Virus record (IMG/VR): IMGVR_UViG_3300020185_005105
Location: 1-36,636 of that record
Length of the DNA: 36,636 nt
Direction: 5' to 3' (one strand)
From: a virus
Numbering within the stretch: position 1 is the first letter of the stretch; each line of letters opens with the position of its first letter. Below are positions 1 through 36,636 of the stretch, piece by piece. The notes below the pieces were generated by a model, which saw only the letters and a program-made list of their open reading frames with translations, was not told the origin of the DNA and searched no databases. The position numbers were made by a program, and so were the translations under genes.

Positions 1-232
1 CCGTAATTGTTGGGGTTATAGTTGGACTTACCGTAATTGTTGGGGTTATAGTTGGACTTACCGTAATTGTTGGGGTTATAGTTGGACTTACCGTAATTGT
101 TGGGGTTATAGTTGGACTTACCGTAATGGTTGGGGTTATAGTTGGACTTACCGTAATGGTTGGGGTTATAGTTGGACTTACCGTAATGGTTGGGCTTACT
201 GTAATGGTTGGAGTTATTGTTGTGGTGGGTGT
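1..232. repeat. 30-bp tandem repeat array
   Basis: A 30-bp unit is repeated in perfect phase: 1-120 holds four identical copies. Copies five and six (121-180) differ by one base (ccgtaattgt becomes ccgtaatggt), and 181-232 is a degenerate remnant. Read on the minus strand it encodes SPTITPTITV repeatedly. The one variable base is synonymous (Thr ACA/ACC). There are no spacers, so it is not a CRISPR. Base 128 is the first that departs from the perfect repeat, so true copy number to the left is unknown. Confidence 0.95.
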
Positions 233-17469: not shown

Positions 17470-18175
17470 ACCCATTACGGCATGCATAAAGCATGGTTTA
17501 GGTAACTGTAAAAGAGAGCGCGCGGGCTTCTTCGTATTTAAAAATAATAACTATGACTATGATTTTATATCTAGTGAAAATTTAGATACAAAAGACCCAA
17601 ATCATTTTTCTTTTAATAATTCTGAATTTTATAAATATTATTTAGATTCTAAAGTTTTTTCATTATTTCATACTCATATTATAAGTTCGCCTACACCGAG
17701 TGAATTAGACATTGAAATTGCTGAATCACTAGGTCTTCCATCTTACATTCTTTCATGCAAGAGTAAAGAGAGCTACCTATATTATCCCAGTAGTTATAAG
17801 CCAAAACAGTTATATGGCAGGATATTTATACCTTTTTTTCAGGACTGCATAACCTTTGCAAAAGACTTTTATGAACTTGAATTTAATATACGCTTATCAG
17901 ATAAAATAAATAACTGGAGTAGGCAATCAAAATTATCGAATATTAAATTAATAAATGAAATAGAAAATAATTTTATTGAAGTGAATTTTAAAGATAAAAA
18001 ATATGGAGATTTAGTTATTTTAGAACCTTCATTAACTAACCTTTTTCATGTGGGTGTTATCAATAATAACGGCAAACTCTCACACCACCCAACAGGAGGA
18101 ATTCCTGTGGATGAATTATTTAATGATCAAAGCGCTAATAAAGTGTATAAGTTATATAGGTATAAGGATTTATGA
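17426..18175 (+). CDS. Tail tip peptidase K-like: JAMM metalloprotease + NlpC/P60 (249 aa)
   Basis: Fits lambda K. The N-terminal domain has a complete JAMM metal motif: H82-T-H84, seven residues, then S92-E-L-D95. The C-terminal domain is an NlpC/P60 cysteine peptidase with C141 (QDCITFAKDFY), H208 (LFHVGVINN) and a following strand with SHHP. Such proteins cut peptidoglycan cross-links or process tail proteins at the tip. The first codon is uncertain: ATG 17426 lies 44 bp inside the L-like gene without a close ribosome site, and the recognisable domain starts about 18 residues in. The stop overlaps the next ATG (ATGA). Both catalytic sets look intact. Confidence 0.9.
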   Translation: MDYLSEDFLGLGNSRPITACIKHGLGNCKRERAGFFVFKNNNYDYDFISSENLDTKDPNHFSFNNSEFYKYYLDSKVFSLFHTHIISSPTPSELDIEIAESLGLPSYILSCKSKESYLYYPSSYKPKQLYGRIFIPFFQDCITFAKDFYELEFNIRLSDKINNWSRQSKLSNIKLINEIENNFIEVNFKDKKYGDLVILEPSLTNLFHVGVINNNGKLSHHPTGGIPVDELFNDQSANKVYKLYRYKDL

Positions 18176-21100: not shown

Positions 21101-24100
21101 TAAACACCCCTTCAATTAGGGGAGGTTTCGGTGCGGGAATTTTTAGTGAATCGCGATTACTTGCGGACTATAATGATAATACAAAAAATATTACTACAAA
21201 TATAATACTAGATTCACCACCCTCACACGTTAACGACCCACAAACAAATGCTGTATTAAGAATTAGAGCTGAATCGATAGATATCAGTGATACTGCCGAA
21301 TTTAAAGTTAACCGCATAACTAGCGCAACTAATGGCGGTAATTTCAATTATATCTGCACAGGCCGCCCTGTTAGAGCAACATTAACAAACGTGGGCGCAG
21401 GATACACAGGAAAAAATGATAACGATATCAATGGCACACAATTAACTTTTCCAGTTTTTCATGAAACTTTTACCGTGTCTAAAATTGATATTAGCTCGAG
21501 CGGAAATCAAGGTTATAAACCGAACGATGAATTTTATGTTTATGGCATTAGTAGCACAAAAAATAATTGGCCAAATGAAACACTTGCTCCTATTTATTTT
21601 TCATTTAAAGCGAAAGTGATTACAAATAAATATGGCGAAATTAAAGAATTTGATATTATAGACGGAGGTTATGGGTTTAGCAGTATTTTTGATGAAGATG
21701 ATCTTATATTTTCCCATCAAGCGGACGGCGATCATACTGGGGCGGCTGCAGCTCTTGGCTACCTTCCTAATCCAGATGATACTTTTAATTTAGATCCCGA
21801 CACACACTTTCCCAAGCAAGACTTAATTCTTACTGTAGACTCAGGTCATTTGAATTTAAATGGAAATGCTGGCTCGGTCTCAAAATTCTATGTAGAACAG
21901 ATAGGTAAAGGGTTTGTTCGCAATCAAATAATAGAAGACCCATTTGAAGCCAATTCTTATGTCCCTCCTGTTTTTCAAGTTGTTGTCGCAGGAGGATCAG
22001 TTTCAAGCGTTACAATTATAGATCCCACAGCAAAAGGGTACTCGTCAGATGATACCAATATTCGCTTGCAATTTTCTGCCCCACAAAATCCTGCATTTTT
22101 TGGCGCAGATGATCCAACTCAAGATGCAAATGCTTGGGCAAGATCGATATTCCTAAGCGATGTTCCAATTAGAGACAGGAATGATAGATTTAATTTTTCT
22201 AAATTTCACTTTGATATGCGCATTGGTCACGCGAAAAACGGTAACGGCGACAGTAATTTACTAGATAATACACTGTTATCTCCAAGTACGCAACCGAACA
22301 TGATTAGCGATGAATTTAAATTGCCATCGTTCACCAAGCAGGTAGATTATCCGCTTTATGGGCCTCGAAATGAAGGCGAGAAAGATTACTATTATACGCA
22401 TACCATTAAAAATCCCGAAGTTTCTGTAGTAGGTCTTTCTATTAAAATAGAAGAATTGCACTATATTTATGAAGGAGACGAAAGCACTCTATACGTCAAC
22501 TTAATACCGTTATTAGCTGCCGCTATTGGATTCATGATAGGCAAAGCCTTGGCTGACGGTATAGCTGCAGCAGTAATTCCAGACCCAGTCTCAGGAGTCT
22601 CCGCGGGCATAGGCACACTAACTGTTGGAGCGCCAGTCGGCGCATGTGTGGCTACAGGAGGGGTAGTAGAGACAAGCGTTTCAATTTTGCCCACACAAGT
22701 CTTCGCAGCGCCAATTGGCGAAATCACAAAACAAGCAGTCATGGTTGGATTACTAGCAGGTTTAGCAGGTTTAGTTGTTGGCACTGCAATTAATTATCTA
22801 GCAAATAATTTAATAAAGTGTAGTGATGTTCCTTGGCTCTGTTTTAAAGTCGGCGAGCTTATTAAAAACAGTGGAGAAATTTGGCCTGCAAAAATGCGAC
22901 TAAACATAGAATACGGTGTAGAAGGCGAAGACTTACAGACCGACGTTATTGAATTTAAAGGCTGTGCTACAAATCCATACATTAAAGATATAGTAGTTGA
23001 AAATCTTCCAAACGCAAAGGGTGTTGGAAATAATTTCAAAAATAGAATCATTAAGGTCTACAGAACGACACGTGAAACGGACCCCGTAACAGGTGGAATC
23101 ATAGAGGCTAGATATAAAATTAACGCATCATTAGCTTCAGTTACAGAGCATGTTGAAGGATTTTTTGGTTATCCAAATACTGCCATTATAGGCACCCGCT
23201 TAAACTCTAGGGATCATCCGCAAATCCCCAAAAGAGAATATTTAGTGAAAGGTAGGTTAATAAATATTCCCTCTAATTACCTCGCAGAATCTGGCACTTA
23301 CTCTGGAAATTGGGATGGAACATTCAATGAAAACATTGAGTGGACCAGTAACCCAGCTTGGATTATACTTGACTTATTAACCAATGAACGTTACGGCATG
23401 GGCAAATACGGTATAACACTTGATGACATTGACGTTTGGTCTTTTTATACTTTTTCTAAATTTTGCGATGAAAGAGTGGAAGCGATTATTGACGGAGTTA
23501 ACACCAATGAAAGAAGGCATATGTGCAATATTTATATTGATGCAGAAAAACAGGCTTATGACTATATCAAGGAATTGTTATATATCTACAATTCTTCTAT
23601 AAACTTTAGCAGCGGAAAAATCTACATCACCACAGACTCCTCTATCTCGACAACCAATGGCTCTATTATGCTTTTCACAAACTCTAATGTATCTGAGGCA
23701 GGTTTTTCTTACTCTAGCACCCCAGAAACTCAAAGGGTAACTGCAGTTACGGTGGATTATCTAGATGAACGCGATAACTATATGCAAAAATCCGAATATG
23801 TAGAAGATTCTGAAGGAATGAAAGAGCATGGATATATTCATTCTAAAATTGCTGGACTAGGAGTTACGCGAAGAGGTGAAGCGCACAGACTAGCTTGGCA
23901 CAAGATGCTTTCATTTCAACTTGAAAAAGAAATTATTGAATTTACAACTGGGCTACAAGCCTCTTACCTTCGCATTGATGACGTGGTTGAAATTTTAGAT
24001 AACAATAAAGTATCAAAACATTCTGGCGGCAGAATTGTAAGGATCATCAATAGCACAACAATTGAATTAGATATACCAACCGCAGCTTTAGATGCATCCA

Positions 24101-24486
24101 CAACTTCACTATTACTACAAAGACCGATAGATTCTGACGACGATTCAGAGACCACTAACTCTTCTCAGATTATTGACAGGCGCGAATCTCAATACCAAGA
24201 ATATACAATTAATTCAAAAAATGGATTTTTAGTAGAGTTTACCGATACTATAGACAGTTCAATAACAAAAGGTTCCACTTGGATCATCAATGAAAATACC
24301 GTAGATAAAATAAAACCAAAAAAATATAGAATCAAAGATATAAAAGAAGCCTCTCAAACTCAATACCAAATTGTCGCCATTGAATACCTAGAAGACAAGT
24401 ATGAACAAATCGATGCCAGCACTTCCGCTAGGGGTGGAATTTATGTTGAAGAAAGAGAGTATTATGGTCATAATATAACTGTTTAA
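18172..24486 (+). CDS. Tail tip protein: I-like domain fused to J-like host specificity protein (2104 aa)
   Basis: The N-terminal ~115 residues match the lambda I family (VLHGEMANQFCESIELNV, then a Gly-rich hydrophobic stretch GMLNGGMGFLGNF). The J-like part starts near residue 125 with TEQGLPVPVVYGQIRIGSQ. The conserved tip domain lies around 1700-1950 (IEWTSNPAWIILDLLTNERY, W1724 on). Between are beta-rich inserts with several 'GxGY'-like turns (VGAGYTGKN, GNQGYKPND, AKGYSSDD). Two strongly hydrophobic stretches (~1445-1471 and ~1523-1548) flank a Gly/Ala/Val-rich segment. It recognises the host and forms the tip. It is nearly twice lambda J's length. The start overlaps the K-like stop, and AAAGTGTATA lies 32 bp upstream. 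I-J fusion and J identity are secure. Confidence 0.9.
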   Translation: MKKFVLHGEMANQFCESIELNVKTMRDAIDGIACNYPSFKSFFVNKSIKGVSYVFIGKSGDRLENFCMDLPLTEKEYNIAPIVEGGSAGMLNGGMGFLGNFALGFAMQKLSDATKPQDDGTPEYEIITTNSSIYSQNENRTEQGLPVPVVYGQIRIGSQVIHSSIHNYDMDFDNNLLYAGKPKRTRLSKLIGGADYSFIDSTEVTDFRAGTVESFNTYLGNELDPSKRNLFETIEDQTKNLTRDHENEAFNGGFANNGQSSNELRQFGPSEDTPEYSRAAADWWDHTQSTNPRPFLYPQTDDIDSNMRPSGPNDITVERVSKAGAAPDNDDDRILSWKNANKELTVGSRGQYQKLESLGMYKSLEILSEGPIAGLANPITGLDRDNGYINYPYGKVDPTIPEGAAFVGFLKYDFDSDSLLSESDDLSVTIEKSGQNYTDGTYTLTGDGKAVGDLFIRADKPVSLKAAKINNISFREEDVVYHINNIETATEPKYYSSNGLFLLNSGDGSIHPNTNNDIVNIAGALSDAYLGDENTDNAGATGVFNLNALQTDSEILNKSFKIGSSYGNSQISHTISPVSEALQYKCEIKKTTERNRISQAEVLDLGSRYKDLIADPDFQRIYDNEYKDANSPTLPFTTSTWDQIARIYVDGDYGIENNLDQSVAIIVATNNASRSRDRRVATVTVTLQEYVSLSDVTITVDAGSRASNFTAAQVLYSSFSADSDGFNYFAGNETAIINLGILLRSAAFANALFDQFNAIAGINMNPVTLPSMTYADITHGGGKYVKFGVGSGSNTSPSVKVANNLPQYMIEGGNDNFDSVTIIEDGSIDEDESAIPKGFYSPFLYPRVTVFVLRKSVSFGFTRFSMLPTSIDCVASVSAQGTISGIHLLKVPDLPVFDSNLGGFTPIMPHETENRDLPFFMSSDGDNYQDLGLYCKIDPSNESIPIKLDINNGSLAINAVRRSSFTAELNWSDHISLNTPSIRGGFGAGIFSESRLLADYNDNTKNITTNIILDSPPSHVNDPQTNAVLRIRAESIDISDTAEFKVNRITSATNGGNFNYICTGRPVRATLTNVGAGYTGKNDNDINGTQLTFPVFHETFTVSKIDISSSGNQGYKPNDEFYVYGISSTKNNWPNETLAPIYFSFKAKVITNKYGEIKEFDIIDGGYGFSSIFDEDDLIFSHQADGDHTGAAAALGYLPNPDDTFNLDPDTHFPKQDLILTVDSGHLNLNGNAGSVSKFYVEQIGKGFVRNQIIEDPFEANSYVPPVFQVVVAGGSVSSVTIIDPTAKGYSSDDTNIRLQFSAPQNPAFFGADDPTQDANAWARSIFLSDVPIRDRNDRFNFSKFHFDMRIGHAKNGNGDSNLLDNTLLSPSTQPNMISDEFKLPSFTKQVDYPLYGPRNEGEKDYYYTHTIKNPEVSVVGLSIKIEELHYIYEGDESTLYVNLIPLLAAAIGFMIGKALADGIAAAVIPDPVSGVSAGIGTLTVGAPVGACVATGGVVETSVSILPTQVFAAPIGEITKQAVMVGLLAGLAGLVVGTAINYLANNLIKCSDVPWLCFKVGELIKNSGEIWPAKMRLNIEYGVEGEDLQTDVIEFKGCATNPYIKDIVVENLPNAKGVGNNFKNRIIKVYRTTRETDPVTGGIIEARYKINASLASVTEHVEGFFGYPNTAIIGTRLNSRDHPQIPKREYLVKGRLINIPSNYLAESGTYSGNWDGTFNENIEWTSNPAWIILDLLTNERYGMGKYGITLDDIDVWSFYTFSKFCDERVEAIIDGVNTNERRHMCNIYIDAEKQAYDYIKELLYIYNSSINFSSGKIYITTDSSISTTNGSIMLFTNSNVSEAGFSYSSTPETQRVTAVTVDYLDERDNYMQKSEYVEDSEGMKEHGYIHSKIAGLGVTRRGEAHRLAWHKMLSFQLEKEIIEFTTGLQASYLRIDDVVEILDNNKVSKHSGGRIVRIINSTTIELDIPTAALDASTTSLLLQRPIDSDDDSETTNSSQIIDRRESQYQEYTINSKNGFLVEFTDTIDSSITKGSTWIINENTVDKIKPKKYRIKDIKEASQTQYQIVAIEYLEDKYEQIDASTSARGGIYVEEREYYGHNITV

Positions 24487-24487
24487 T

Positions 24488-26737
24488 ATGGCATTACGCA
24501 CAACAGGATACATTGACTTTAACTGGACAGCTACTCCAGATATTGATGGATACTATCTACATGTATACAAGAATGGCACCAATTTTAATACTTTCAATTT
24601 ATCTAACAATACTTTTCGCTTGTCTGGCCTTAAAGAAGGGGATTTCGCAGATGCTAAAGTTTACACTTATGTAGGCGATAATATTTCAAACACTTATACA
24701 AGCCTAGTCAGGCAAACCGTTCCAGTATTTAACTTTCATGTATCAGGTAAAACTTTTGAATTCAATAAACTATCCTTAAACAATCAATCTTTAAATTTTT
24801 CCGACACAATCAGTGGATATCACGCAACAGGTAAATATTCAAATAATCAATCTCTCTTGAGTTTTTCAGTAACCAACCCAAGAGATGATGCAACGCTATC
24901 ATACTTTGGTGAAGACCCTTTTTTTTCTAGCGCTAGATATATAGCAAAAAAAGATTCTGTAGAGCTGGAATCCTTTGATTTAAGTTCTTTTACTTTTAGC
25001 TCAAGAAACTCTTACGATTCTAGAAACTACACGGCACAAATAGTGGTTAACGATTATTATGGTTCGGGCATTACTGGAAATATACATTTAAATAATGACC
25101 CTATATCAATAAATTCTGTAACTCTTCAAAACACATATCTTGATAACAGCACGGCGACTGTAACAGTCATACCTAAATATTCCGCAAGAGCAACGGGCGT
25201 AGAATATATATTATATGATGACGACACTTTGTCTACATACCATAATAGCGGAATAACTGCGAGCACAGCAAATTTCTCAACAACAATTCCATTTGATTCG
25301 ACAGGTTTTTTACATCTCCGCCCTTATGACTGGTTTGGTTCTGGGCATTTATTAGAGCGCGATCAGCTAATCTATTTAAGTTCTGAGGAATTTATACCCA
25401 AAAATTCAATCAAAAACTTTAGAATAGAAAACGATGAAACTCCAAATTACTTATCGGTTTATGCGGACTACAATAACATTACAACATCTGGCAGCTACTT
25501 CACTCTATCGATTGACCCCGACGCAAGCCAATCCTTTGGTGGCGATTCTTACTTCACTGGCATAATAGAAGATCTAACAAGTGGATTTTTATTTAATAGT
25601 TTCGAAAATAGAACAGGAGATCATGAGAATTTTTATTTTAATTTAAATTTATATCAGAGTGGCAGTAATTCTTTTGAGGATTCTGCTCAAAAATTTTCTT
25701 TTTCTTCCAAGCCTAAATTTATAACATCTGGCATATCTTTTGATTACATTAATGGCGTTACTACTTTAGAATTTGATTCAGAGCCTCAGTATTCTTTCTC
25801 TGGTATTGATGTCCTGTTTTCTGGACAAGACACTATGTCCTATGAGTTATATAGTGGAATCACCTATCAATCGGGAGACATAGAGGTTCAAGCTTCAGTA
25901 AAACTGGTTAATAGCAACGACAACACCCAAGTATTTGATCAATTAAATTTTAGCGGATCTGGCGCTAATCAACTACTAAAAGCATCTCCTTTAGGCGGAG
26001 TTTCTAATGCTGCAGATGGATTAATTTATTTCTCACTTGAAAATGTAAAGCCCTCTATCTCAATTAATTCAGTTAATGTATACCGCCAACCTTCCTTAGT
26101 TGAAACCTCCGTTTCTATTGGCGAGGAATTGTCGGGAGTAAGAATATTTGAAAATTACGCAAATCACCTTCAAGAAGTGGCCTCCATAGGAAACTACCCC
26201 TCTTTTGCTCCCACTGGCATGAAAAAAAATGCAATCTATGAAGCTACAGGGGTTGGATTCACGGGTGAATATGAAAGCGGTAGATATTTCGCTTATCGAT
26301 TTGAGCCCGTCAATGGATACGGAACTGGTGATGCCACGCAAGCATTTACGAGTGAATTTACTTTAAACCCGATTTCTCAAGAATTGGAAAATGAAATTGA
26401 ACAATTAGGTGAAGAGGTTGATGGCCTTTCCTCTATCAACTATTATGTTACTCGCTCGGGAATTGCGTCAGGTGTATGCCATATGAATGTAGATTGGTCT
26501 ACTGAATTTCAGCCACAAATAACACCAATACTCTCAGCTAATATCGTTAGCTTCAATCCTGAAGATCATATTATGGGTTCGCAGATTAGCGGCATACCAA
26601 CGACTAGCGGAGCTACGTTTATATTTACAGACGACATACCAAATACGGGTTACTTTTTGGAAATTATTGCTATAGAGCCAGAAGTCAATTTTGCTTCTTC
26701 TCAATCCAGTTTGACATCTCAATCCAGTTTATCTTAA
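24488..26737 (+). CDS. Beta-rich tail tip / fibre protein with Fn3-like domains (749 aa)
   Basis: The ATG follows the J-like stop after one base. Residues 1-75 look like a fibronectin type III domain (GYIDFNWTATPDIDGYYLHV, then FRLSGLKEGD). Several further strand-rich modules follow, each opening with phrases such as ISINSVTLQNTYL, SIKNFRIENDE and KFITSGISFDY. Near 630 a short coiled coil (ELENEIEQLGEEVDGL) leads to a terminal domain, and the last residues are SSQSSLTSQSSLS. The run of Ig/Fn3-like modules, lack of enzyme motifs, and place after J indicate a tip-attached fibre or receptor-binding protein. The terminal SQSSL repeat recalls the stalk protein at the right end of the window. Confidence 0.8.
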   Translation: MALRTTGYIDFNWTATPDIDGYYLHVYKNGTNFNTFNLSNNTFRLSGLKEGDFADAKVYTYVGDNISNTYTSLVRQTVPVFNFHVSGKTFEFNKLSLNNQSLNFSDTISGYHATGKYSNNQSLLSFSVTNPRDDATLSYFGEDPFFSSARYIAKKDSVELESFDLSSFTFSSRNSYDSRNYTAQIVVNDYYGSGITGNIHLNNDPISINSVTLQNTYLDNSTATVTVIPKYSARATGVEYILYDDDTLSTYHNSGITASTANFSTTIPFDSTGFLHLRPYDWFGSGHLLERDQLIYLSSEEFIPKNSIKNFRIENDETPNYLSVYADYNNITTSGSYFTLSIDPDASQSFGGDSYFTGIIEDLTSGFLFNSFENRTGDHENFYFNLNLYQSGSNSFEDSAQKFSFSSKPKFITSGISFDYINGVTTLEFDSEPQYSFSGIDVLFSGQDTMSYELYSGITYQSGDIEVQASVKLVNSNDNTQVFDQLNFSGSGANQLLKASPLGGVSNAADGLIYFSLENVKPSISINSVNVYRQPSLVETSVSIGEELSGVRIFENYANHLQEVASIGNYPSFAPTGMKKNAIYEATGVGFTGEYESGRYFAYRFEPVNGYGTGDATQAFTSEFTLNPISQELENEIEQLGEEVDGLSSINYYVTRSGIASGVCHMNVDWSTEFQPQITPILSANIVSFNPEDHIMGSQISGIPTTSGATFIFTDDIPNTGYFLEIIAIEPEVNFASSQSSLTSQSSLS
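26698..26732 (+). repeat. Short direct repeat at the fibre gene's 3' end
   Basis: TCTCAATCCAGTTT occurs twice, five bases apart, just before the stop, encoding SQSSL twice. The same pentapeptide is found in the stalk protein at the right edge. Confidence 0.7.
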
Positions 26738-26743: not shown

Positions 26744-27115
26744 ATGAAAATCGAGCATCAAAAAGAATTCATCAAAGGCCTTCTTTCTTATAAAAATAAC
26801 ATTCAAGAAGAATCAAAAAAACACATGGTAAACAACATAGAGAAAGATACAGCAGAAGCTTTTGCTAAGCACTTTTATAAAGGTGAAGTGGATCCAAAGT
26901 TAAATATCTCAGCGGAAGACGTTTTCGCTTTGGCGGAAAATGGTAATATTGAGCCTATAGAATTAATTGAAAACATGTTTACAATGGTTGCGGAGTTGGA
27001 AAATATTCAACATCAAGGTCGAGATATTGACCTATCTCCCAGTAAAAAAATATTCGATCAATTAAAAGAAAATTTCATCAAATCAAAAGAAGAGGAAGAT
27101 ATTAGAAACTTTTAA
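26744..27115 (+). CDS. Small helical protein of unknown function (123 aa)
   Basis: A 123-residue, charged, probably all-helical protein (MKIEHQKEFIKGLLSYKNNI, HMVNNIEKDTAEAFAKHFYKG, then ELIENMFTMVAELENIQHQG). It has no Cys, signal peptide, membrane segment or known motif. It starts six bases after the fibre gene stop and ends about 20 bp before the glycan cassette, so it is the last gene of the tail block or the first of the cassette. Small helical proteins after fibre genes sometimes act as assembly chaperones, but I see nothing specific to support that. Confidence 0.75.
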   Translation: MKIEHQKEFIKGLLSYKNNIQEESKKHMVNNIEKDTAEAFAKHFYKGEVDPKLNISAEDVFALAENGNIEPIELIENMFTMVAELENIQHQGRDIDLSPSKKIFDQLKENFIKSKEEEDIRNF

Positions 27116-27137: not shown

Positions 27138-28205
27138 ATGAATGTACTATTAACTGCAAGCTTCGACAAAGGATTGTTCACCAACGGACTACAGCAAAAT
27201 ATTGTTTTTTTAGCTGAACTATTGCAGGATATAGGGCATACCCCTATAGTGGCGGTAAATCATAGTATCGATAAATGTGTAGACCCTCCTACAGGCATTC
27301 TAATTATAGAAGAAAAAGAAATCCTCGACTATGATTACGGTTACATTTGCCAAACAGGATATGTATTAGATAATCAGATGGTCGACAAAATTAAAGATAA
27401 AAATCCCGACACTAAAAATATACATATTCACTATGGCAACAGAATGCTTGCTGATATAGAGCAATGCAAATGGGACAATATTGCAATCTCTGGTCACAAA
27501 GTTGATGAGATATGGACATCGCCCCACTATGAAATAGCGATACCATACTTCAAGGCTTACTATAATACTCAAAAAGTCTTTGTGCTGCCTTATATTTGGG
27601 AGCCAAAATATATTGACATGCATGACAGGTTATGGACGAAAGCTGGCAAAAGCTGTAAATATGACCCCAAGAGACCGAAGAATATAGCCATAGTTGAGCC
27701 AAACTTAAACATGACAAAAAACTGCATGCCTTCTATTTTAATAGCCGAAGAAGCATTGCGCACCAATATTGATTTATTTGACAGGCTTACAGTTTATTGT
27801 TCTGACACAATTCGAGAAAAGAAATACTTTCGCTCTTGGATGTGGAATTTGAATTTACCAAAAGTTGGGAAAGTAGACTTTTCTCCAAGGAAAAGAATTT
27901 CAACCATCTTTTCATCAGAAGCCAATATAGTTATATCTCATCATTTAATGAACGCTTTAAATTATACTCACTTAGAAGCGCTTCACTTAAATATTCCATT
28001 AGTTCATAATTCAGAGTACATGAAAGGTGCGGGATATTATTATCCTGATTATGACATCCAAAAAGGGGCAAAGCAATTAATTGACGCTCTTACTTATCAT
28101 AATCAAAATTTAGAAGAATATAAATCTAGAGCAGAAAAAATAAAATATCAATTTTCGAGGCACAACCCCTTAGTTAAAGCGGAATATAAAAAATTATTTT
28201 CATAA
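27138..28205 (+). CDS. DUF2827-type glycosyltransferase-like protein, copy 1 (355 aa)
   Basis: Matches the DUF2827 family by its N-terminal FTNGLQQNIVFLAELLQDIG, the mid-protein IAIVEPNLNMTKNCMPSILI and the C-terminal HLEALHLNIPLVHNSEYMKG followed by GYYYPDYD. That last stretch is the family's counterpart of the sugar-nucleotide-binding end of GT-B enzymes. The family is uncharacterised; a GT-B-like glycosyltransferase role is inferred from fold-level similarity and from the surrounding glycosyltransferases. The next gene is a clear paralogue starting at the stop. A GTGTA string lies 15 bases before the ATG. Family membership is confident; substrate unknown. Confidence 0.85.
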   Translation: MNVLLTASFDKGLFTNGLQQNIVFLAELLQDIGHTPIVAVNHSIDKCVDPPTGILIIEEKEILDYDYGYICQTGYVLDNQMVDKIKDKNPDTKNIHIHYGNRMLADIEQCKWDNIAISGHKVDEIWTSPHYEIAIPYFKAYYNTQKVFVLPYIWEPKYIDMHDRLWTKAGKSCKYDPKRPKNIAIVEPNLNMTKNCMPSILIAEEALRTNIDLFDRLTVYCSDTIREKKYFRSWMWNLNLPKVGKVDFSPRKRISTIFSSEANIVISHHLMNALNYTHLEALHLNIPLVHNSEYMKGAGYYYPDYDIQKGAKQLIDALTYHNQNLEEYKSRAEKIKYQFSRHNPLVKAEYKKLFS

Positions 28206-29303
28206 ATGAAGATTGGTATAACTTTAGATATGTCTATAGCATTCTGGGCAAATGGAATGCAACAAAACATTGTCTTTCTTTATAGCCTATTAAAACAAAT
28301 ACCAGAAAATGATTGCTATTACATAACTCACAAAAAACCAGCTTACATTTTAAATAAAAAACATCAAGGCATGATGCTCGACGACCTCATGTCAGATGAT
28401 GGAGAGGCATTGGACGCTTTAATTATTGCTGGCTTTGATCTTCTTCCAGAAATGTATGATAAATTAAAGCAAAGAAATCCTAATATTAAAATTATATTAA
28501 TTCACTTCGGCAATAAACTAATGGACGATATTCATTATACAGTAGCTCCATCAAACTATAAAAAACAGCCCATTACTCCACCAAAATATTTATCTCAAAT
28601 CTGGATATCGCCCCATCATGAATACGGCAAAGAATATATAAAAACTTATTACCAGCATGAAGATGTTAGAGTTATACCTTATATATGGGATCCTTATTTT
28701 GTACAAGAAAAAATAAAAGAATTAAAAAATAAAAATTTATCACCATTTTTTAGCGCAGAAAAAAGTCGATCTGTCTGCGTTTTTGAGCCAAACATTTCTC
28801 ATCTAAAAAACTGTATTATTCCTGTCGCAATATGTGAAAGATTTGATTCACTACATCCCGATAAATTAAATGCGATCAATGTATTCTCTACCGATAGAAT
28901 TAGAGAAAAAGAGTATTTCTCCTCGTTAATGAAAAAATTTAAAATAGTGCAAAAAAAAGATTTTATATTTTTTAATAATCGCTGGGGTAGTTTGGATGCA
29001 TTAAGTAAATTTGGCAGTATTGTTGTGAGTCACCAAATTAATAATGAATTGAATTATTCTCATTTTGAGACATTATACTTAGGTCTTCCTTTAATTCATA
29101 ATTCTCCTAGACTAGAAAGTCATGGATACTATTACCCTGAGTTTGACGTAAAAATGGGAGCCAATCAACTCATGAGCGCAGTATTAAACCATCAGATTGT
29201 CCAACAAGATTACCAAAGGGAATCAAGAGAGTTTCTTCTTCCCTTTAGCCCTTATAATCAAAAAAATGCAGGAATATATAATTTATATTTAAATGATGAT
29301 TAA
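28206..29303 (+). CDS. DUF2827-type glycosyltransferase-like protein, copy 2 (365 aa)
   Basis: A tandem paralogue of the preceding gene, with equivalent blocks in order: FWANGMQQNIVFLYSLLKQI, VFEPNISHLKNCIIPVAI, ELNYSHFETLYLGLPLIHNS and GYYYPEFDVKMGA. It begins directly after the upstream stop and overlaps the GT25 gene by 11 bp. The copies have diverged well beyond recent duplication, so they probably add different residues or linkages. It has no signal peptide, so it acts in the host cytoplasm if it is a sugar-nucleotide-dependent enzyme. Substrate and acceptor cannot be read from the sequence. Confidence 0.85.
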   Translation: MKIGITLDMSIAFWANGMQQNIVFLYSLLKQIPENDCYYITHKKPAYILNKKHQGMMLDDLMSDDGEALDALIIAGFDLLPEMYDKLKQRNPNIKIILIHFGNKLMDDIHYTVAPSNYKKQPITPPKYLSQIWISPHHEYGKEYIKTYYQHEDVRVIPYIWDPYFVQEKIKELKNKNLSPFFSAEKSRSVCVFEPNISHLKNCIIPVAICERFDSLHPDKLNAINVFSTDRIREKEYFSSLMKKFKIVQKKDFIFFNNRWGSLDALSKFGSIVVSHQINNELNYSHFETLYLGLPLIHNSPRLESHGYYYPEFDVKMGANQLMSAVLNHQIVQQDYQRESREFLLPFSPYNQKNAGIYNLYLNDD

Positions 29304-30429
29304 TAGAGTATCAAAATCTTTTTTTATTAATTTAGACCGCCGAACGGATAGATTAGACCATATACATAAAACTTTACCTTTTTATGCAGAAAGGTTTTCA
29401 GCTGTAGATGCTAAAGATCTTACATTGACTGAAGAAATTAAAAAGCTATTTCCAGAAAAATACCACCAACTCACAAAAGCAGAAATCGCATGCGCGTTAA
29501 GTCATTACAGATTATGGAAGCAATTAACTCAAGATAAAAATAGCAATAACTATCTAATTCTAGAGGATGATGTAGTTTTCGAGGATGGTTTTCTTGAATT
29601 ATGGAATAACAAATTTAGTCAAGATTTACCCAAAAACTTCATGATCGCTTATCTGGGTGGCTGCCAACCTTGGAATAAAACGCATTATCATAATGTACTT
29701 GAATATAAAAACAATCATTTTTTTACAGTAAAAAAGAACGACTTCTTCACTCCAAACGACTACTACTGGCATATGAACGCATCTTCATATATAGTCAGCA
29801 AGCAAGCCGCCTCCTTACTTTGCCAATGGGTTGAGCAGTTTGGCTTTAATGCTGCTTTTGATGTTTTCATTATAAAATTCCTAACAACAAATAAATTATT
29901 CTCAGCCCCAGATAGAATACTTCATTTAAATCCGCTAATGGCTAGGCAAATTCATGAAGCGAATGGAAATATCGAAGCCGATAAAAAGTCTGACTTAAGG
30001 TTCTGCAATGATCGATTTGAAAAAGAGGAAAAGCAAAAATTAAAATTAATCTGGCAGGTTGATCCAAATAACCTAAAACAAACCTATGAAACAGATTGGA
30101 TTAGAGAAATTTTTTCAGAGCTTGATTTAGAAGAAATTATCGACACAGAATTTAAGGTTGTATCTGATGATTCCATTATTGTATATACTGATATTTGGCC
30201 AGCCAGCAAAAAAGGTGGTGACCAAGACGCTTTATATCTTTACCTCGATAAAGCTGCCAAGCAAAATAATGTCTCCATTGTTCATTTAGGCGATGAATAC
30301 ACTCATGCACGGACTGATCATTATGAAAATTTTCGCAACACATTTCGCACAACTTACAATGAGTCTGTATCTCATATGAAAAATGTCACTCAAATACCAT
30401 TAGGCTACAAGCGAGGATTCCATGATTAG
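29293..30429 (+). CDS. GT25 glycosyltransferase fused to N-terminal half of an exostosin-like domain (378 aa)
   Basis: Residues ~1-225 are a glycosyltransferase family 25 domain (LPS galactosyltransferase-like): FFINLDRRTDRLDHI, AEIACALSHYRLWKQL and the acidic metal/sugar motif E91-D92-D93 in NYLILEDDVVFEDGF. From ~293 the protein changes to the start of an exostosin-like domain (DDSIIVYTDIWPASKKGGDQ to IPLGYKRGF) and stops at once (HD, TAG). The rest of that domain appears two genes on, so this protein carries only its N-terminal half. It overlaps the DUF2827 gene by 11 bp and the sulfotransferase gene by 8 bp. The GT25 call is secure; the exostosin half is supported by how well the two pieces join. 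Confidence 0.85.
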   Translation: MMINRVSKSFFINLDRRTDRLDHIHKTLPFYAERFSAVDAKDLTLTEEIKKLFPEKYHQLTKAEIACALSHYRLWKQLTQDKNSNNYLILEDDVVFEDGFLELWNNKFSQDLPKNFMIAYLGGCQPWNKTHYHNVLEYKNNHFFTVKKNDFFTPNDYYWHMNASSYIVSKQAASLLCQWVEQFGFNAAFDVFIIKFLTTNKLFSAPDRILHLNPLMARQIHEANGNIEADKKSDLRFCNDRFEKEEKQKLKLIWQVDPNNLKQTYETDWIREIFSELDLEEIIDTEFKVVSDDSIIVYTDIWPASKKGGDQDALYLYLDKAAKQNNVSIVHLGDEYTHARTDHYENFRNTFRTTYNESVSHMKNVTQIPLGYKRGFHD

Positions 30430-31012
30430 CCACGAACACAAATGTATATTTATACATGTACCCAAAACTGCTGGCGAAAGCATTGAAACCGCTTTGATGG
30501 GTCGGCCAAACTGGGAAAACGATGATCCGAATTACGCAAGCTTAGGCTTGCCAGAAGGCAGCGAGATTGGAAAAGATAAGCATTATACTATTGCCCAATG
30601 GAAAGATCACATCAACTTTACTAATTATTTCAAATTCTCTTTTGTTAGAAACCCATGGGATTCAGCTTATTCATTTTATAGATATAGAAAAGAAAGAGAT
30701 AAGTTTGATCACAGTTTTACAGATTGGGTGAAATTAATTAATCCTAAATTCTGGAAAGAATTCTTGTCTCCACTGAAATATGTTTTATTAAACAATAAAG
30801 AGGGCGTAGACTTTATTGGAAGGTTTGAAGATATTGAGGCTGACTGGGATTATATTTGCTATAGATTATCGCAAGACATAAAACTACCTCATATAAATAA
30901 GGGGGACAACCAATCAGATTATATTGATCACTATGACAGCATTTCTCGTGATATTGTCCATGAACATCTTAAGGAAGATATAGAGTATTTTAATTATAAA
31001 TTTGAAGGATGA
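30422..31012 (+). CDS. PAPS-dependent sulfotransferase (196 aa)
   Basis: A compact sulfotransferase-2-type protein. The 5'-phosphosulfate loop is IHVPKTAGESIE (K15 the expected catalytic/PAPS residue), and the 3'-phosphate site is FVRNPWDSAYSFY (R76, S84). FIGRFEDIEADWDYIC and PHINKGDN are typical later motifs. It would move sulfate from PAPS to a sugar hydroxyl, giving an anionic glycan. The ATG lies inside the last codons of the GT25 gene and the TGA overlaps the next ATG, so it is inserted without any spacer between two parts of an exostosin-like domain. Family assignment is confident; the acceptor sugar is unknown. Confidence 0.9.
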   Translation: MISHEHKCIFIHVPKTAGESIETALMGRPNWENDDPNYASLGLPEGSEIGKDKHYTIAQWKDHINFTNYFKFSFVRNPWDSAYSFYRYRKERDKFDHSFTDWVKLINPKFWKEFLSPLKYVLLNNKEGVDFIGRFEDIEADWDYICYRLSQDIKLPHINKGDNQSDYIDHYDSISRDIVHEHLKEDIEYFNYKFEG

Positions 31013-32757
31013 AAACAATTTTTGACAAACCCTATGTATGGTCTTTTTTGGGACAAGTAAAAGGAAAGCCAACGCGCGAAAATATGCTTGCGGAACTCAA
31101 GCAAGTTCGCGGCGAACATTTTATACATATCACTGAACGCTGGAACGATCAGAACCAAATAGACGTCAAAAAATATAAAGAAATACTATCTGATAGCATT
31201 TTTGTTCCTTGCCCTAGCGGTTGGGGCGGCGCGAGAGGTTTGAAGGATTGCTTTAGGTTATATGAGGCATTAGAGGCTGGATCTATACCTATTGTCGAAA
31301 AAGATGATTTCGCCTATTTCGATAAATTTTTTCCCAATCACCCAATTCTGCAAACTCCTGATGACTGGCTTGGTATAAGTGATGATATGGAGTCTTTACT
31401 TGAAGAACCAAAAAAATTGCAAGAATATAATGAGGCATTAATAAAATGGTGGCAAGACTACAAGTCAAACTTAAAAACAGAAATCAAAAATAAGTTTTTA
31501 AATTCAAAAAAAAATATTTCTGTTATTATTCCAACTATTTGGCAAGCCAATGAATACCTCAAGAAATCCTTAATATCGCTAGAGTCTAACGCTTTTATAT
31601 CTGAAGTTTTAATTGTAAACAATGAAGTCAGTCAAACCCCCAGTTGGATAAGTGTTTTCAAGAAAGTTAAAGTATTAAATCAGAAAAAAAATTTATATTT
31701 TAACGGCAGCTTAAATCTAGCCGTTCCACTGTGTCAATCAGAGTTATGTTGCGTCTTGAATGATGACGCCAATATAGATAACGAATGCTTTGAGTTTATG
31801 TTAAACCAAGATATGAATTCTGTTGGCGCAGTGTTTATAGACCCCGCATGCATCAAGGGAGAGGGCGTACCAGATAGCCATCTTTTTAGTGGCCGCAACT
31901 TTAATGATGAAAAACTCTTGAAGCCCTATGATGAATTCTTTAATCACGGGCCTGGTATGATATTTTTCTTAAAACCTCAAAACTTCAAACCTATACCAGA
32001 AGAATTAAAACATCACTGCGGAGATAGATATATCTTTCAGTCTAATAAAAACGCTGGACTTAAAAACCTCTTCATTCAGGGCTTTCAACTAAAAATACCA
32101 TCAGTAGGTTCCGCCAGTCGATGCAGCGCAAATATTGAATCTGTGATTCGTCAGGATTATGTAGCAAGAGATAAAATATTTAACCTAAAACAAGCAAAAA
32201 AAAATGTTTTTGAATACATCAAACTTGACTTAAATTATTCACCAAAAAATAAATGGAAAATTATTTCTCATAAATTGAAATCAGGGTCTGATATTTTGTG
32301 TGTTGGTGGTGATTTATTGCAGGTGAGCGACGATATTGATATTAAAAATATTTGCGAAAAAGATATAGATATAGCTTTATCAAAACACAATTATAGCGCT
32401 TGGGGTCAAAAACTAGAAGGGGAGTTGTCGTCTTGTTTTATATACATTAAAAGCACCCCTCAGACTATTAATTTAATTGATAGTTTATTGTTTCAAATAG
32501 AGGGTATTAAAACTGATCAAAGATTTTTTAGTTATTCTGAGCAATATATTGACCTCGCTTTAGAAAAATCATTAACTGCAAGCAATATCAAATTTCAATC
32601 AATTCCAAATGATAAATTTGCTGTATCTGAAGAAATATACGGCAAAAATATAGAACATTACAAATCCAATCCTCCTGCTTATATTAATTTTGATAGAAAT
32701 GTATATACAGAAGAATTAAAAAAAATATATTTTAATGCGTATACTAATATTAAATGA
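31009..32757 (+). CDS. Exostosin-like C-terminal half + GT2-type glycosyltransferase + third GT-A-like domain (582 aa)
   Basis: Residues ~1-160 are the second half of an exostosin-like domain, beginning abruptly (KPYVWSFLGQVKGKPTREN, SDSIFVPCPSGWGG, LYEALEAGSIPIVEKDDFAY). These are the family's central and C-terminal motifs with no N-terminal part. Residues ~168-390 resemble a GT2-type domain (ISVIIPTIWQANEYLKKSL; VLNDDANID with D252-D253 as the DxD-like acid pair). Residues ~398-582 look like a third, GT-A-like region (SGSDILCVGGDLLQVSDDID) with a degraded metal motif. The start overlaps the sulfotransferase stop; the end overlaps the next gene by 23 bp. First two assignments are good; the third is tentative. 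Confidence 0.85.
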   Translation: MKTIFDKPYVWSFLGQVKGKPTRENMLAELKQVRGEHFIHITERWNDQNQIDVKKYKEILSDSIFVPCPSGWGGARGLKDCFRLYEALEAGSIPIVEKDDFAYFDKFFPNHPILQTPDDWLGISDDMESLLEEPKKLQEYNEALIKWWQDYKSNLKTEIKNKFLNSKKNISVIIPTIWQANEYLKKSLISLESNAFISEVLIVNNEVSQTPSWISVFKKVKVLNQKKNLYFNGSLNLAVPLCQSELCCVLNDDANIDNECFEFMLNQDMNSVGAVFIDPACIKGEGVPDSHLFSGRNFNDEKLLKPYDEFFNHGPGMIFFLKPQNFKPIPEELKHHCGDRYIFQSNKNAGLKNLFIQGFQLKIPSVGSASRCSANIESVIRQDYVARDKIFNLKQAKKNVFEYIKLDLNYSPKNKWKIISHKLKSGSDILCVGGDLLQVSDDIDIKNICEKDIDIALSKHNYSAWGQKLEGELSSCFIYIKSTPQTINLIDSLLFQIEGIKTDQRFFSYSEQYIDLALEKSLTASNIKFQSIPNDKFAVSEEIYGKNIEHYKSNPPAYINFDRNVYTEELKKIYFNAYTNIK

Positions 32758-34426
32758 TAGACCTTGGCATTATGAGTGCTATATTCATATTATTGATTTT
32801 TGCATAGCATACAATATAGAAGTTGATATTTTAGAAGCTTATTCAGATTCTTTGGGTGTTAAAGAATTTTACTTAAATCATTTTAGAGACAATATAAGGT
32901 ATGTTAAGGGAGTTAATAAATTAAAAGACAAATGTCTAGCTGATCCATTTACTAACATTAAATATGATAAAGTTTTTTTAGTTACCGATAACTTTATTAA
33001 AACGCAATATTTTAATTACTTTAAAAGTTTAGAGCCCAACTCAAGCGCTGACGATCAATTAATATTCATAGATCATTCTAATGAAATTCGAAACCGATTC
33101 TCTAACCATATTGACATAAGACATTTTCCAGACAAAAATAATAACTATGCTTATACATGCATTGATTTAATCTCAAAAGAAGAAAAGCAAGAATTTTTAT
33201 CACAAGAAAAACAAACCAACATATTAATATCAGCTAATCCAAGCAACATTAATATCACCAAAGAAATACAAACCTTAAATGATATTAATCCCAATGCTCA
33301 TATCCATTGGGTGTCACGCGATTTATCAAAACTAAAACAATTTAAACTCAATAACATATCTTACTATGAGTCATTAAATCAGACTGAATTAAATGAACTA
33401 TTTAAAAAATCCCATTATGTTTATGTTCCAAAATACCACAATAAAAATTATCGAACCGAATCAACAACTGGCATTTTAGGATTTGCTTACAGCTATTTGT
33501 GTCAAGTCGTATGGGGAGGCGCAAATTATAACAAGCATTACAGGCTATATTCTCCATTCGAATATTCTAAAGGTTTAGGTGTAGATGATAATTCAAATAT
33601 CAACTTAGTAGCAAAAGAACGCCGTGAACTCATAAATCATAGAAATAAAGTTTTTTCTAGCTTCCTTACTGAAAGCAAAATAAATTTATTATATTTCAAG
33701 GGCAGGAATTTTGGTAATTTTGGAGACGAACTTTCTCCATATATTGTAAAAAAAATTCTTAATAATGAAAATATAGCCGAAAACGGCAACCCAGAAAACC
33801 ATAAAAAAAATTTAATAGCGCTCGGGTCGTATATTCAAACAGCTCAGGATAATTTTTATATATTTGGGTCGGGAGTTAGAGCTTTGTTCCATGATCTCAA
33901 TTTTAACAAATTAAATATTATAAGTGTTCGTGGACCATTAACCAGAAAAGTCTTGTTGGCAAAAAATATTGATTGCCCACAGGTTTACGGGGATCCAGCT
34001 CTACTTCTCCCAGAGTTTTACCAACCAGATAAAATCACGAATCTATCAAGAAAAATTGGCGTAGTTCCGCATCTGAGTCAAATTCAAAATTTTAAAAACC
34101 CTAACCCTGCAAAGTATTTTATTATTGATCCTACCCAATATTGGAAAGTTGTCATTGATCAAATTTATTCATGTAAATGTGTTTTAGCTTCATCTCTACA
34201 TGGGTTGATTTGTGCTGATGCATACAATATCCCCAATTTGTGGTTTAGGCAAAAAATTCAAGAGGGTAATTTTAAATTCTTAGATTATTTCGCTAGCCAA
34301 GGTAGGAAAAAAGTTTATATTTCAAGTTTAGAAGAATTCTGTGAATCAAAGTTGTATAATGACGGCAATAAAATTGACATGAATATAGCATTAAAAAAAT
34401 TTAAAAACAGTAATTTATTGAAATGA
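32735..34426 (+). CDS. GT-B-like domain fused to polysaccharide pyruvyl transferase (563 aa)
   Basis: The C-terminal ~250 residues match the polysaccharide pyruvyl transferase family: NFGDELSPYIV (G330-D331-E332), LIALGSYIQTAQDNFYIFGS, SVRGPLTRKVLLAKNIDCPQ, VYGDPALLLPEFY, and SSLHGLICADAYNIP with H489. Such enzymes add a pyruvate ketal to a sugar using PEP. The N-terminal ~310 residues look like a separate glycosyltransferase (start MRILILNDRPWHYECYIHII; later HYVYVPKYHNKNYRTESTTG and VVWGGANYNK), probably GT-B, though I do not recognise the family. ATG 32735 lies inside the previous gene. Pyruvyl transferase call is strong; the N-terminal call is moderate. Confidence 0.85.
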   Translation: MRILILNDRPWHYECYIHIIDFCIAYNIEVDILEAYSDSLGVKEFYLNHFRDNIRYVKGVNKLKDKCLADPFTNIKYDKVFLVTDNFIKTQYFNYFKSLEPNSSADDQLIFIDHSNEIRNRFSNHIDIRHFPDKNNNYAYTCIDLISKEEKQEFLSQEKQTNILISANPSNINITKEIQTLNDINPNAHIHWVSRDLSKLKQFKLNNISYYESLNQTELNELFKKSHYVYVPKYHNKNYRTESTTGILGFAYSYLCQVVWGGANYNKHYRLYSPFEYSKGLGVDDNSNINLVAKERRELINHRNKVFSSFLTESKINLLYFKGRNFGNFGDELSPYIVKKILNNENIAENGNPENHKKNLIALGSYIQTAQDNFYIFGSGVRALFHDLNFNKLNIISVRGPLTRKVLLAKNIDCPQVYGDPALLLPEFYQPDKITNLSRKIGVVPHLSQIQNFKNPNPAKYFIIDPTQYWKVVIDQIYSCKCVLASSLHGLICADAYNIPNLWFRQKIQEGNFKFLDYFASQGRKKVYISSLEEFCESKLYNDGNKIDMNIALKKFKNSNLLK

Positions 34427-35823
34427 AAATAGCAATAACAACATTATATACTCCAGAAATAGCAGACTTTTCAGTAGAAGCTGTTAAGAATTTTAAAATG
34501 TATTGTGATTTACATGGTTATGATTTATTTTCATACAACAAAACATTAAAGGAGGGATTGCGCGGTAACTGGTGCAAACCTAAAGTTGTACTCAATCATA
34601 TTAAAGACTATGATTATGTTGTGTGGCTGGATAGCGATATAGCTATATTGGATATTAATCGAAAGCTAGAAGATATTATTGAACCACATAAAGACAAGCA
34701 TTTTATTGCTACGGATGACATGGGTGGGTGGAAACTAAATAATGGATTCATGATTTTTAAAAATACAAAATATGTTAAAGACATGTTGGGTGTGTTATGG
34801 AAAATGCAATCTCAGTTCACCAATAAGCGCAGGGGTGACCAAAAGTTTTTTATAAATTTTATTGAACAGCTTAAGTTAACGGAAAAAACTTACCACCTTT
34901 ACCCTCAATCAGAATTATGTGCGCCCCTCTTAATTAAAAACCATCATTCCTTTTCCGCGCATTTAATGGGCATTCACATAAATGACGTTCGTAAGGAATA
35001 TATAAAATATATCAACGATCAAAACACTACTGTTTTAAATTTAAAATCAAAACAAAAACAATTTTTACACCTAAGAGATAAATGGGCAGATTTTATTGAT
35101 GGTAAAATATTTGGCAGATATAGAAATTTACATGACTGGATTGGGTTCGTCTCGGAAACTGTTAAAATCACAAAGCCGCCCAAGGAAAAATATTCTTGCT
35201 ATAATGCTGGAAAAAAAATTGGCATAGTAACTTTATACACTTCTGAAATTGCCGATTTTGGAGCGCATGCAGAAATTAGCATCAAGCAATACGCTGAAAA
35301 ACAGGGTTATACATTTCATGTTTATCGCGAAACATTAGATAGCAATACTCATCCTAATTGGTCAAAACCTCGAGCAATTATGAATCATATTGATGATCAT
35401 GACGTTATCATATGGATGGATGCCGATACGATTATATTTAATCCTGAGAAAAAATTTGAAACTATTCTCGCTCGATGTGTTCCAATGAAAAAAGTTATTG
35501 CATGCAGAGATGTGGGAATAAAAGGTTCAATGCTTAATAGTGGAGTCTTAATGTTCCGCAATCATCAGTACTCAAAAAATATAATTAAAAAATGGATGGC
35601 ACATGAATGCGATAAGTCTGGATTATATACAGGAGGTGGAGACCAAAATGTTTTATGTGATATCTTAAAAAAAGTAGATGGATTTGGACATAATACAAAA
35701 ATTTTTCCAATGAATAAATTTAATACCGACCCTAGATTAGTTGATGATGATACATTTATATTGCATTTTATGGCTTATCCGCACCCTCTTAAAAAGATTT
35801 TTATGAGTTATTGGAATAGTTAA
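34423..35823 (+). CDS. Tandem-duplicated GT34-like galactosyltransferase (466 aa)
   Basis: Two copies of a GMA12/MNN10-type (GT34-like) domain. Copy one (~1-210): KIAITTLYTPEIADFSVEAV, NWCKPKVVLNHI, WLDSDIAI (D70-x-D72), LNNGFMIFKN and GDQKFF. Copy two (~265-466): KIGIVTLYTSEIADFGAHAE, NWSKPRAIMNHI, WMDADTII (D333-x-D335), LNSGVLMFRN and GDQNVL. Both metal-binding DxD motifs are intact, so both may be active and add different or repeated sugars. A linker with RYRNLHDWIGF joins them. ATGA overlaps the upstream gene. It is the last gene of the cassette, and the fibre gene begins about 50 bp on. Family call is good; sugar donor is unknown. Confidence 0.88.
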   Translation: MKIAITTLYTPEIADFSVEAVKNFKMYCDLHGYDLFSYNKTLKEGLRGNWCKPKVVLNHIKDYDYVVWLDSDIAILDINRKLEDIIEPHKDKHFIATDDMGGWKLNNGFMIFKNTKYVKDMLGVLWKMQSQFTNKRRGDQKFFINFIEQLKLTEKTYHLYPQSELCAPLLIKNHHSFSAHLMGIHINDVRKEYIKYINDQNTTVLNLKSKQKQFLHLRDKWADFIDGKIFGRYRNLHDWIGFVSETVKITKPPKEKYSCYNAGKKIGIVTLYTSEIADFGAHAEISIKQYAEKQGYTFHVYRETLDSNTHPNWSKPRAIMNHIDDHDVIIWMDADTIIFNPEKKFETILARCVPMKKVIACRDVGIKGSMLNSGVLMFRNHQYSKNIIKKWMAHECDKSGLYTGGGDQNVLCDILKKVDGFGHNTKIFPMNKFNTDPRLVDDDTFILHFMAYPHPLKKIFMSYWNS

Positions 35824-35876: not shown

Positions 35877-36636
35877 ATGGGAAAAATATTCCGTACAGAA
35901 AAACTATCGCTTAATGCAGACAATATCCGCATTAGGTCTGAGGACGTAGGTGAGTTTGAAATTACAGACTCCGAAAACAACGTCTTAATAAGTAGAGCGA
36001 CAATCGAAAGTGATATCTCTAGCTTGGCTTTGCAAAACAGCCAATCAAGCTTGCAGAATGTTGAGCAAAACTCTGACATTTCTAGCTTAGCTATCACAGT
36101 CACAACCAACGATTCCGACCTGTCAAGTCTTGCAGCTACTGATGTAACTCATAGCTCTGACATTTCTAGCTTGGCGACCAGCCTTGGCGGAGGTACAGAA
36201 CAACTTGATTCTGACATTTCCAGCTTGGCTTCGGCTTCTAGCTTGGAATCCAGCCGTCGTGATTCTGATGTATCCAGCTTAGCTTTAGCTTCTGAAAATG
36301 CTGATATAGCTCATTCTTCTGATATTTCCAGCTTAGCAGGAACGATCACAAGTAATGACTCTGATCTGTCCAGTCTTGCAGCTACTGATGTAACTCATGA
36401 TTCTGACATTTCCAGCTTGGCTTCAGCTTCTAGCTTGGAATCCAGCCGTCGCGATTCTGATGTATCTAGCTTGGCTAACACAATCACAACCAACGATTCC
36501 GATCTGTCGAGTCTTGCAGCTACTGATGTAACTCATAGCTCTGACATTTCTAGCTTGGCGACCAGCCTTGGCGGAGGTACAGAACAACTTGATTCTGACA
36601 TTTCCAGCTTGGCTTCGGCTTCTAGCTTGGAATCCA
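35877..36636 (+). CDS. Coiled-coil stalk fibre protein with SD[ILV]SSLA repeats (partial, C-terminus off the window)
   Basis: ATG 35877 opens 253 visible codons without a stop before the edge. Residues 1-~44 (MGKIFRTEKLSLNADNI, FEITDSENNV) look like an attachment head. The rest is 13 copies of SD[ILV]SSLA at 14-, 18- or 21-residue spacing. Fourteen and 21 are multiples of seven and 18 is 7+11, so Ile/Val and Leu fall on the a/d core of a heptad/hendecad coiled coil, as in trimeric stalks. Ser, Asp and Thr dominate the surface. A tail fibre or whisker attached near the tip is the likely role. Spacing before the ATG is AT-rich with a TGTGTATA string. Gene and repeat structure are secure; the head's partner is unknown. 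Confidence 0.88.
   Translation, partial: MGKIFRTEKLSLNADNIRIRSEDVGEFEITDSENNVLISRATIESDISSLALQNSQSSLQNVEQNSDISSLAITVTTNDSDLSSLAATDVTHSSDISSLATSLGGGTEQLDSDISSLASASSLESSRRDSDVSSLALASENADIAHSSDISSLAGTITSNDSDLSSLAATDVTHDSDISSLASASSLESSRRDSDVSSLANTITTNDSDLSSLAATDVTHSSDISSLATSLGGGTEQLDSDISSLASASSLES
36009..36636 (+). repeat. Nested stalk repeats with a 384-bp (128-residue) super-period
   Basis: SDISSLA-type units are arranged in a higher-order pattern: 36111-36252 recurs at 36495-36636, offset 384 bp, with only two mismatches (36119/36503 and 36125/36509). A third, shorter version near 36357-36480 lacks 54 bp (18 codons) between two 'TCTGACATTT' copies, consistent with in-frame slippage. The last 127 bases of the window (36510-36636) are identical to 36126-36252. 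Confidence 0.92.

Follow-up and report, generated by a model that had tools for sequence, protein, structure and literature searches.

A run of glycosyltransferase genes lodged among the tail genes of an uncultured phage raises the question of what its products modify. The stretch analyzed here, called the window throughout, comprises the 36,636 bases of the virus record IMG/VR IMGVR_UViG_3300020185_005105, which may be a fragment and has DNA repeats at both contig ends; the source phage is probably aquatic. Within it, seven successive open reading frames (ORFs), genes A to G, occupy positions 27138-35823 on one strand, neighbours either overlapping or lying a few bases apart, in agreement with the coupled gene set described in the initial annotation. 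The cassette opens with two genes for proteins of the DUF2827 family and is followed by the gene for a Ser-rich coiled-coil stalk fibre. We assign a probability of about 70% to the view that the cassette is a dedicated system for cytoplasmic glycosylation of this stalk; virions would then carry the cassette's glycan.

DUF2827 and the other cassette enzymes

Genes A (27138-28205) and B (28206-29303), on the plus strand like the rest of the cassette, encode proteins with about 31% identity to each other that match positions 12-361 of the 362 in the DUF2827 profile (PF10933), with E-values of 7e-63 and 2e-69 and scores of 213 and 234 bits against a cut-off of 25. An alignment of 57 DUF2827 sequences has invariant residues at G17, W133, P158, W161, E194, N196, K201, R259 and H298. 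The AlphaFold2 model of the gene B protein has a predicted local distance difference test score (pLDDT) of 94.4 and a predicted template modelling score of 0.91. With this model as query, Foldseek returned BshA as the best match (E-value 1.5e-10) together with MshA, TarM and SdgB, and VIA-align gave Z-scores of 24.0 for TarM and 23.9 for BshA over 324 residues. This model supports a confident prediction that DUF2827 proteins are glycosyltransferases of the GT-B fold, a point missing from the initial annotation. Because the EX7E motif of CAZy GT4-type retaining enzymes is not preserved, Asn280 replacing the first Glu and E/D288 standing at the second by alignment position, the family is not filed under GT4. 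The likeness to SdgB is one of fold only, as Pfam gives DUF2827 alone, and no SdgB/Gtf family, up to an E-value of 0.1. In Pfam and NCBIfam, the proteins match neither an N-glycosyltransferase (NGT) nor a bacterial autotransporter heptosyltransferase (BAHT) family, and a literature search met DUF2827 in a single database paper.

The five remaining genes add transferases of several kinds. Gene C (29293-30429) combines a GT25 domain (amino acids 8-188; PF01755, Glyco_transf_25, E-value 2e-25) with an unnamed conserved C-terminal domain (30076-30423) that is missing from the initial annotation. Gene D (30422-31012) encodes a sulfotransferase (PF03567, Sulfotransfer_2, E-value 5e-14) that also matches the galactose-3-O-sulfotransferase family phrog_3347 (E-value 3e-22). 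Gene E (31009-32757) begins with the C-terminal half of an RXYLT1/GT47-like enzyme (31024-31491; PF24785, RXYLT1_C, E-value 3e-13), continues with a GT2 domain (PF00535, Glycos_transf_2, E-value 2e-7) and ends in an unnamed part; its assignment to GT47 is based on RXYLT1_C (50 bits, cut-off 27), because the Exostosin_GT47 model (E-value 2.5e-5) falls below its own threshold. In gene F (32735-34426), an unnamed N-terminal domain precedes a polysaccharide pyruvyl transferase (amino acids 360-504; PF04230, PS_pyruv_trans, E-value 1e-13), and gene G (34423-35823) contains two GT34 domains (PF05637, Glyco_transf_34, E-value 2e-21, in several matched stretches), the second of which is conserved as the final domain of the cassettes. 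A multi-enzyme glycan cassette, as originally proposed, is thus borne out by Pfam, which recovers nearly all of the families first listed; the N-terminus of gene F, taken at that time as GT-B-like, matches no family.

A constant frame around a shuffled middle

Searching viral contigs with the DUF2827 proteins and the stalk N-terminus led to about 30 related loci, a recurrence that shows the arrangement not to be a product of chance. Almost all of them open with two DUF2827 paralogues, gene A leading and a GT34-type gene lying between the two in a few cases, and wherever the other end is present they close with a GT34 domain, usually with the stalk gene next. This frame accompanies tails of the lambda J type (L005, L008, L010, L030), another set of fibres (L004, L017, L019, L022-L027) and a third arrangement (L012-L016, L018, L029, L034). 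The smallest cassette, L030, is reduced to DUF2827-DUF2827-GT34-stalk; elsewhere the middle varies and draws on GT25, GT32, pyruvyl transferase, GT2, GT8, WbsX, a GXM-type domain, sulfotransferase and unnamed domains. Among 50,697 phage records, neither the gene B protein nor the GT47-like half had a match, the GT34 query had one partial match, in a 484-kb metagenomic record, and no cultured relative was found.

The nearest relative, L003, shares long blocks of about 96-97% identity with the window, and these blocks break close to domain borders. In L003 the pyruvyl transferase domain is in gene C and not in gene F, gene C has gained a GT32 domain and gene E lacks GT2. The sulfated and pyruvylated glycan suggested by the initial annotation is compatible with the window, which has both genes, but is not general, since a sulfotransferase gene lies inside the cassette only in the window and its sister L003 (97%) and a pyruvyl transferase is present in a minority of the related cassettes.

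Exchange of parts may go below the level of the enzyme. The C-terminal domain of gene C and the GT47-like domain of gene E occur together in 13 loci and are jointly missing from 14, and no locus has one alone (Fisher p 5e-8, for loci that are not independent). The GT47-like part of gene E matches only the C-terminal half of the chlorovirus protein A075L (E-value 1e-6). We propose that the end domain of gene C and the opening domain of gene E are two halves of one GT-B enzyme made as separate polypeptides; the gene C domain was not confirmed as the N-terminal half of a GT47 enzyme by Pfam, by a sequence search of the PDB or by a model of low confidence (pLDDT 68).

The stalk fibre

The stalk gene (35877-36636, plus strand, cut by the contig end) encodes a conserved N-terminal domain of about 48 amino acids followed by Ser-rich SD(V/I)SSL repeats, and its product is the proposed acceptor. 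The domain is present in 18 of 27 cassette records, and the nine that lack it are fragments of 12-53 kb; co-occurrence of cassette and Ser-rich stalk in related phages, named at the outset as a check, is therefore positive. In L033 the stalk is near the cassette on the opposite strand, and in G013 both are present about 10.8 kb apart. Three records reached via the stalk and devoid of DUF2827 (L052, L054, L049) are cut inside or beside the cassette or the stalk. Across 19 stalks we counted 251 S-S-L motifs, with the consensus [DEN][ST]D[VI]SSL and an invariant S-S-L, compared with 0-3 in most other large proteins of the stalk-bearing loci.

In a T4-like class, a Ser/Thr-rich neighbour occurs at 22 of 32 DUF2827 loci, to be compared with 40% of ORFs as the background for these fibre-rich regions, so that this class adds little to the link. 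SSL counts in the large phages L076-L079 were dropped as a sign of such a link, the runs being part of leucine-rich-type repeats. A separate DUF2827 lineage found in large phages (L111-L142) adjoins tail-fibre genes, and L123 has genes for adenylylsulfate (APS) kinase, sulfotransferase and GT25 in a row. After the stalk gene, most relatives encode a protein of about 226 amino acids with weak DnaJ similarity (L004:12418-13098, L005:13373-14050), which could be a fibre assembly factor.

Bacterial relatives beside Ser/Thr-rich adhesins

One scan of bacterial genomes gave nine DUF2827 relatives. In Burkholderiales and a gammaproteobacterium, two or three DUF2827 genes lie in tandem directly downstream of genes for very long adhesins with Ser/Thr repeats; such an adhesin is upstream in 14 of 15 DUF2827 regions, and two examples have ESPR, YadA head, stalk and anchor domains. 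A sample of 150 Burkholderiaceae genomes included 40 with DUF2827. Among 40 further regions, 39 from this sample and one from a Prochlorococcus genome, a large Ser/Thr-rich ORF stands alongside DUF2827 in 23, mostly with a YadA-like end. When adjacency was defined by the position of the YadA anchor only, with anchors located independently, 20 of 30 DUF2827-positive Burkholderiaceae genomes had an anchor no more than 1.3 kb from a DUF2827 gene, against about 0.5 expected. The combined Ser and Thr fraction of the adjacent trimeric autotransporter adhesins has a median of 0.42, versus 0.22 in 35 others, most of them from the same genomes (area under the curve, AUC, 0.94). Some non-adjacent adhesins are likewise Ser/Thr-rich, and these could be served by DUF2827 in trans. 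On the Prochlorococcus single-cell contig (L102:2-8146), DUF2827 is beside an ABC transporter with a C39 peptidase, an HlyD protein and a Ser/Thr-rich (0.28) repeat protein.

Proposed mechanism and alternatives

From the gene anatomy, the linkage, the shuffling, the predicted fold and the adhesin association, we infer a reaction, its acceptor residues, an order of sugars and a benefit. Newly made stalk chains with (D)SD(V/I)SSL repeats would be glycosylated on serines inside the infected cell, with one or both DUF2827 enzymes transferring the first sugar or sugars, a priming role suggested by the association of this family, phage and bacterial, with Ser/Thr-rich stalks. The middle transferases would then elongate the glycan and, in the window phage, the sulfotransferase (D) and the pyruvyl transferase (F) would, going by their families, add negative charge. 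The retention of GT34 in the minimal cassette suggests that this constant domain carries out a step that the cassettes have in common. Stalk glycosylation of this kind could do without a lipid carrier, flippase or polymerase, the acceptor being a cytoplasmic protein released on lysis. Where close relatives differ by shuffled whole transferase domains, parts of the glycan would be swapped and its core kept. The fibre might gain shielding, stiffening or altered adhesion.

The enzymes might instead alter the host surface (lipopolysaccharide (LPS) core, capsule or another polymer), leading to a superinfection block or a change of serotype, in which case the cassette would lie close to fibre genes only because both sit in a recombination hotspot around host-range genes. 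LPS and capsule loci typically contain GT25, GT2 and pyruvyl transferases, conversion of O-antigens by temperate phages is known (PMC12619734), and extension of the LPS core requires no exporter of its own. However, the window's cassette has none of the genes of Wzx/Wzy-type loci (flippase, polymerase, lipid-carrier priming transferase), and a hydropathy scan of 279 ORFs in the relatives G005 (146 kb) and G002 (184 kb) detected none with five or more predicted membrane spans, which speaks against a polytopic flippase, polymerase or lipid-carrier transferase; the earlier statement that no such gene is visible consequently holds even in near-whole relatives. Moreover, the bacterial partners of DUF2827 are protein adhesins with Ser/Thr-rich stalks, and the linkage to the stalk gene is constant over different tail types. 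We regard modification of the host surface as unlikely.

G005 has sugar-nucleotide and further transferase genes, which would suit such a role. It and G002 each encode enzymes of the GDP-mannose-dehydratase/epimerase type and a protein that partially matches APS kinase, so that the supply of sugar and sulfate donors may, by these resemblances, be partly phage-encoded. Within the set scanned, G005 has nine sulfotransferases; eight genes related to gene D are clustered in 10 kb (L085:8157-18046), interleaved with other genes for proteins of 200-290 amino acids, in what may be a second, sulfation-heavy glycan region distant from the tail cassette. G002 (L092-L101) has DUF1501, PSCyt2 and PSD1 genes, which are typical of Planctomycetota and Verrucomicrobiota, and our guess is that its host belongs to one of these phyla.

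If the virion is the target, the main acceptor might be another of its proteins, the stalk being a mere neighbour. A 749-amino-acid protein (24488-26737, plus strand), which follows the J-like gene and has a C-terminal domain resembling that of related stalks, is also adjacent and ends in SSQSSLTSQSSLS; the J-like protein, the capsid and a Pro/Thr repeat protein at the left end are further candidates, and the virion glycans known from phages decorate the capsid and the tail tube. These proteins, however, are not common to the other cassette-bearing groups, as the SSL stalk is, and another acceptor seems to us quite improbable. The initial annotation had Ser/Thr-rich stalks at both ends of the window as candidate acceptors: the right-end stalk is a likely one, but the left-end protein (2-535, minus strand, cut by the contig end; PTITPTITVS encoded by a 30-bp DNA repeat) has no consistent link to the cassette and was set aside. 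Several proteins of G005 share its domain. Upstream of the cassette are tail genes resembling lambda L, K and I-J, including a single ORF of 2104 amino acids (18172-24486) with profile matches to a tail assembly protein of type I (amino acids 1-169) and to a central fibre J protein (amino acids 1566-2084). Directly before the cassette, as in relatives of the lambda J type, is a protein of 123 amino acids with no known function (26744-27115, plus strand).

Several points weigh against stalk glycosylation. L050 has a stalk and about 11.7 kb of upstream sequence with no cassette, a single and weak counter-example, and 17 of the 40 further bacterial regions have no recognisable adhesin next to DUF2827. 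The p values, among them that for the difference in Ser and Thr content (6e-10), overstate the evidence because the genomes and sequences are related and not independent. The absence of an exporter is not proof, since the records may be fragments, and the SSL repeats could be a purely structural coiled coil. A fuller form of this last idea, in which the phage and autotransporter stalks are all structural coiled coils, linked to DUF2827 by clustering of surface loci, and the enzyme's substrate is a small molecule or lipid unrelated to them, draws on BshA and MshA, close folds that glycosylate small molecules, and on the DUF2827 clusters with no adhesin alongside; clustering alone does not, however, explain why the adjacent adhesins differ so strongly in Ser/Thr content from others of mostly the same genomes, and we find this account barely credible. 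Glycosylation of phage DNA, to which the structural match to T4 alpha-glucosyltransferase (Z-score 20) and the frequent action of phage transferases on DNA might point, is equally implausible given the bacterial DUF2827 genes adjoining surface adhesins, the position of the cassette in the tail region and the lack of a base-hydroxymethylating enzyme among the families listed (first 25 per list) for two relatives.

Glycosylation of the stalk leads to a broader proposition, to which we give even odds: DUF2827 would be a further class of cytoplasmic protein O-glycosyltransferase for the Ser/Thr-rich stalks of bacterial trimeric autotransporters and phage tail fibres and, in large uncultured phages, the fixed start of a glycan-diversifying island that varies the fibre's sugar coat by shuffling whole transferase domains, and even the halves of a split GT47-like enzyme, between phages. 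The data suggest a protein-glycosylation system common to phages and bacteria that was previously unrecognised. If this is correct, DUF2827 acquires a function, autotransporter glycosylation gains an enzyme class, and uncultured phages carry modular glycan factories for their tail fibres, with consequences for protease resistance of the fibre, sticking to particles or hosts and escape from recognition. The shuffled modules would also provide a repertoire of unusual glycosyl-, sulfo-, pyruvyl- and possibly methyltransferases.

Comparison with known systems

In function, the closest systems appear to be SdgA/SdgB of Staphylococcus aureus, the loci of Ser-rich repeat proteins and the virion glycosylation of chloroviruses and mycobacteriophages. 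SdgA and SdgB are cytoplasmic GT-B enzymes that are encoded with Ser-rich repeat adhesins and act in sequence, as the DUF2827 pair may do beside its stalk, and the minimum acceptor of SdgB, DSD (PMC8561734), is a frequent motif in the phage stalks. In contrast to them, DUF2827 proteins have about 365 amino acids, form a Pfam family of their own and lack the extra domain of SdgB; their partners are coiled-coil stalks, and the phage has a long, shuffled series of further transferases.

HMW1C-like NGTs and BAHTs glycosylate adhesins in the cytoplasm, the enzyme often being encoded next to its adhesin, and are the sole dedicated glycosylating classes named in a review of type V secretion (PMC8151025). 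The bacterial DUF2827 genes adjoin adhesin genes in the same manner, but NGTs modify Asn and BAHTs place heptose on beta-helical passengers, whereas the partners of DUF2827 are Ser/Thr-rich, coiled-coil trimeric adhesins.

Among viruses, the multidomain transferases of chloroviruses (A075L, A111/114R) likewise make a virion glycan without the secretory machinery of the host; there the acceptor is the major capsid protein of an algal virus and the linkage is to nitrogen, whereas here a tail stalk of a tailed phage would be modified, probably through oxygen. The mycobacteriophages Che8 and Rita also decorate virion proteins with phage-encoded transferases (PMC11256854, PMC12619734), but these are few and act on capsid and tail-tube proteins.

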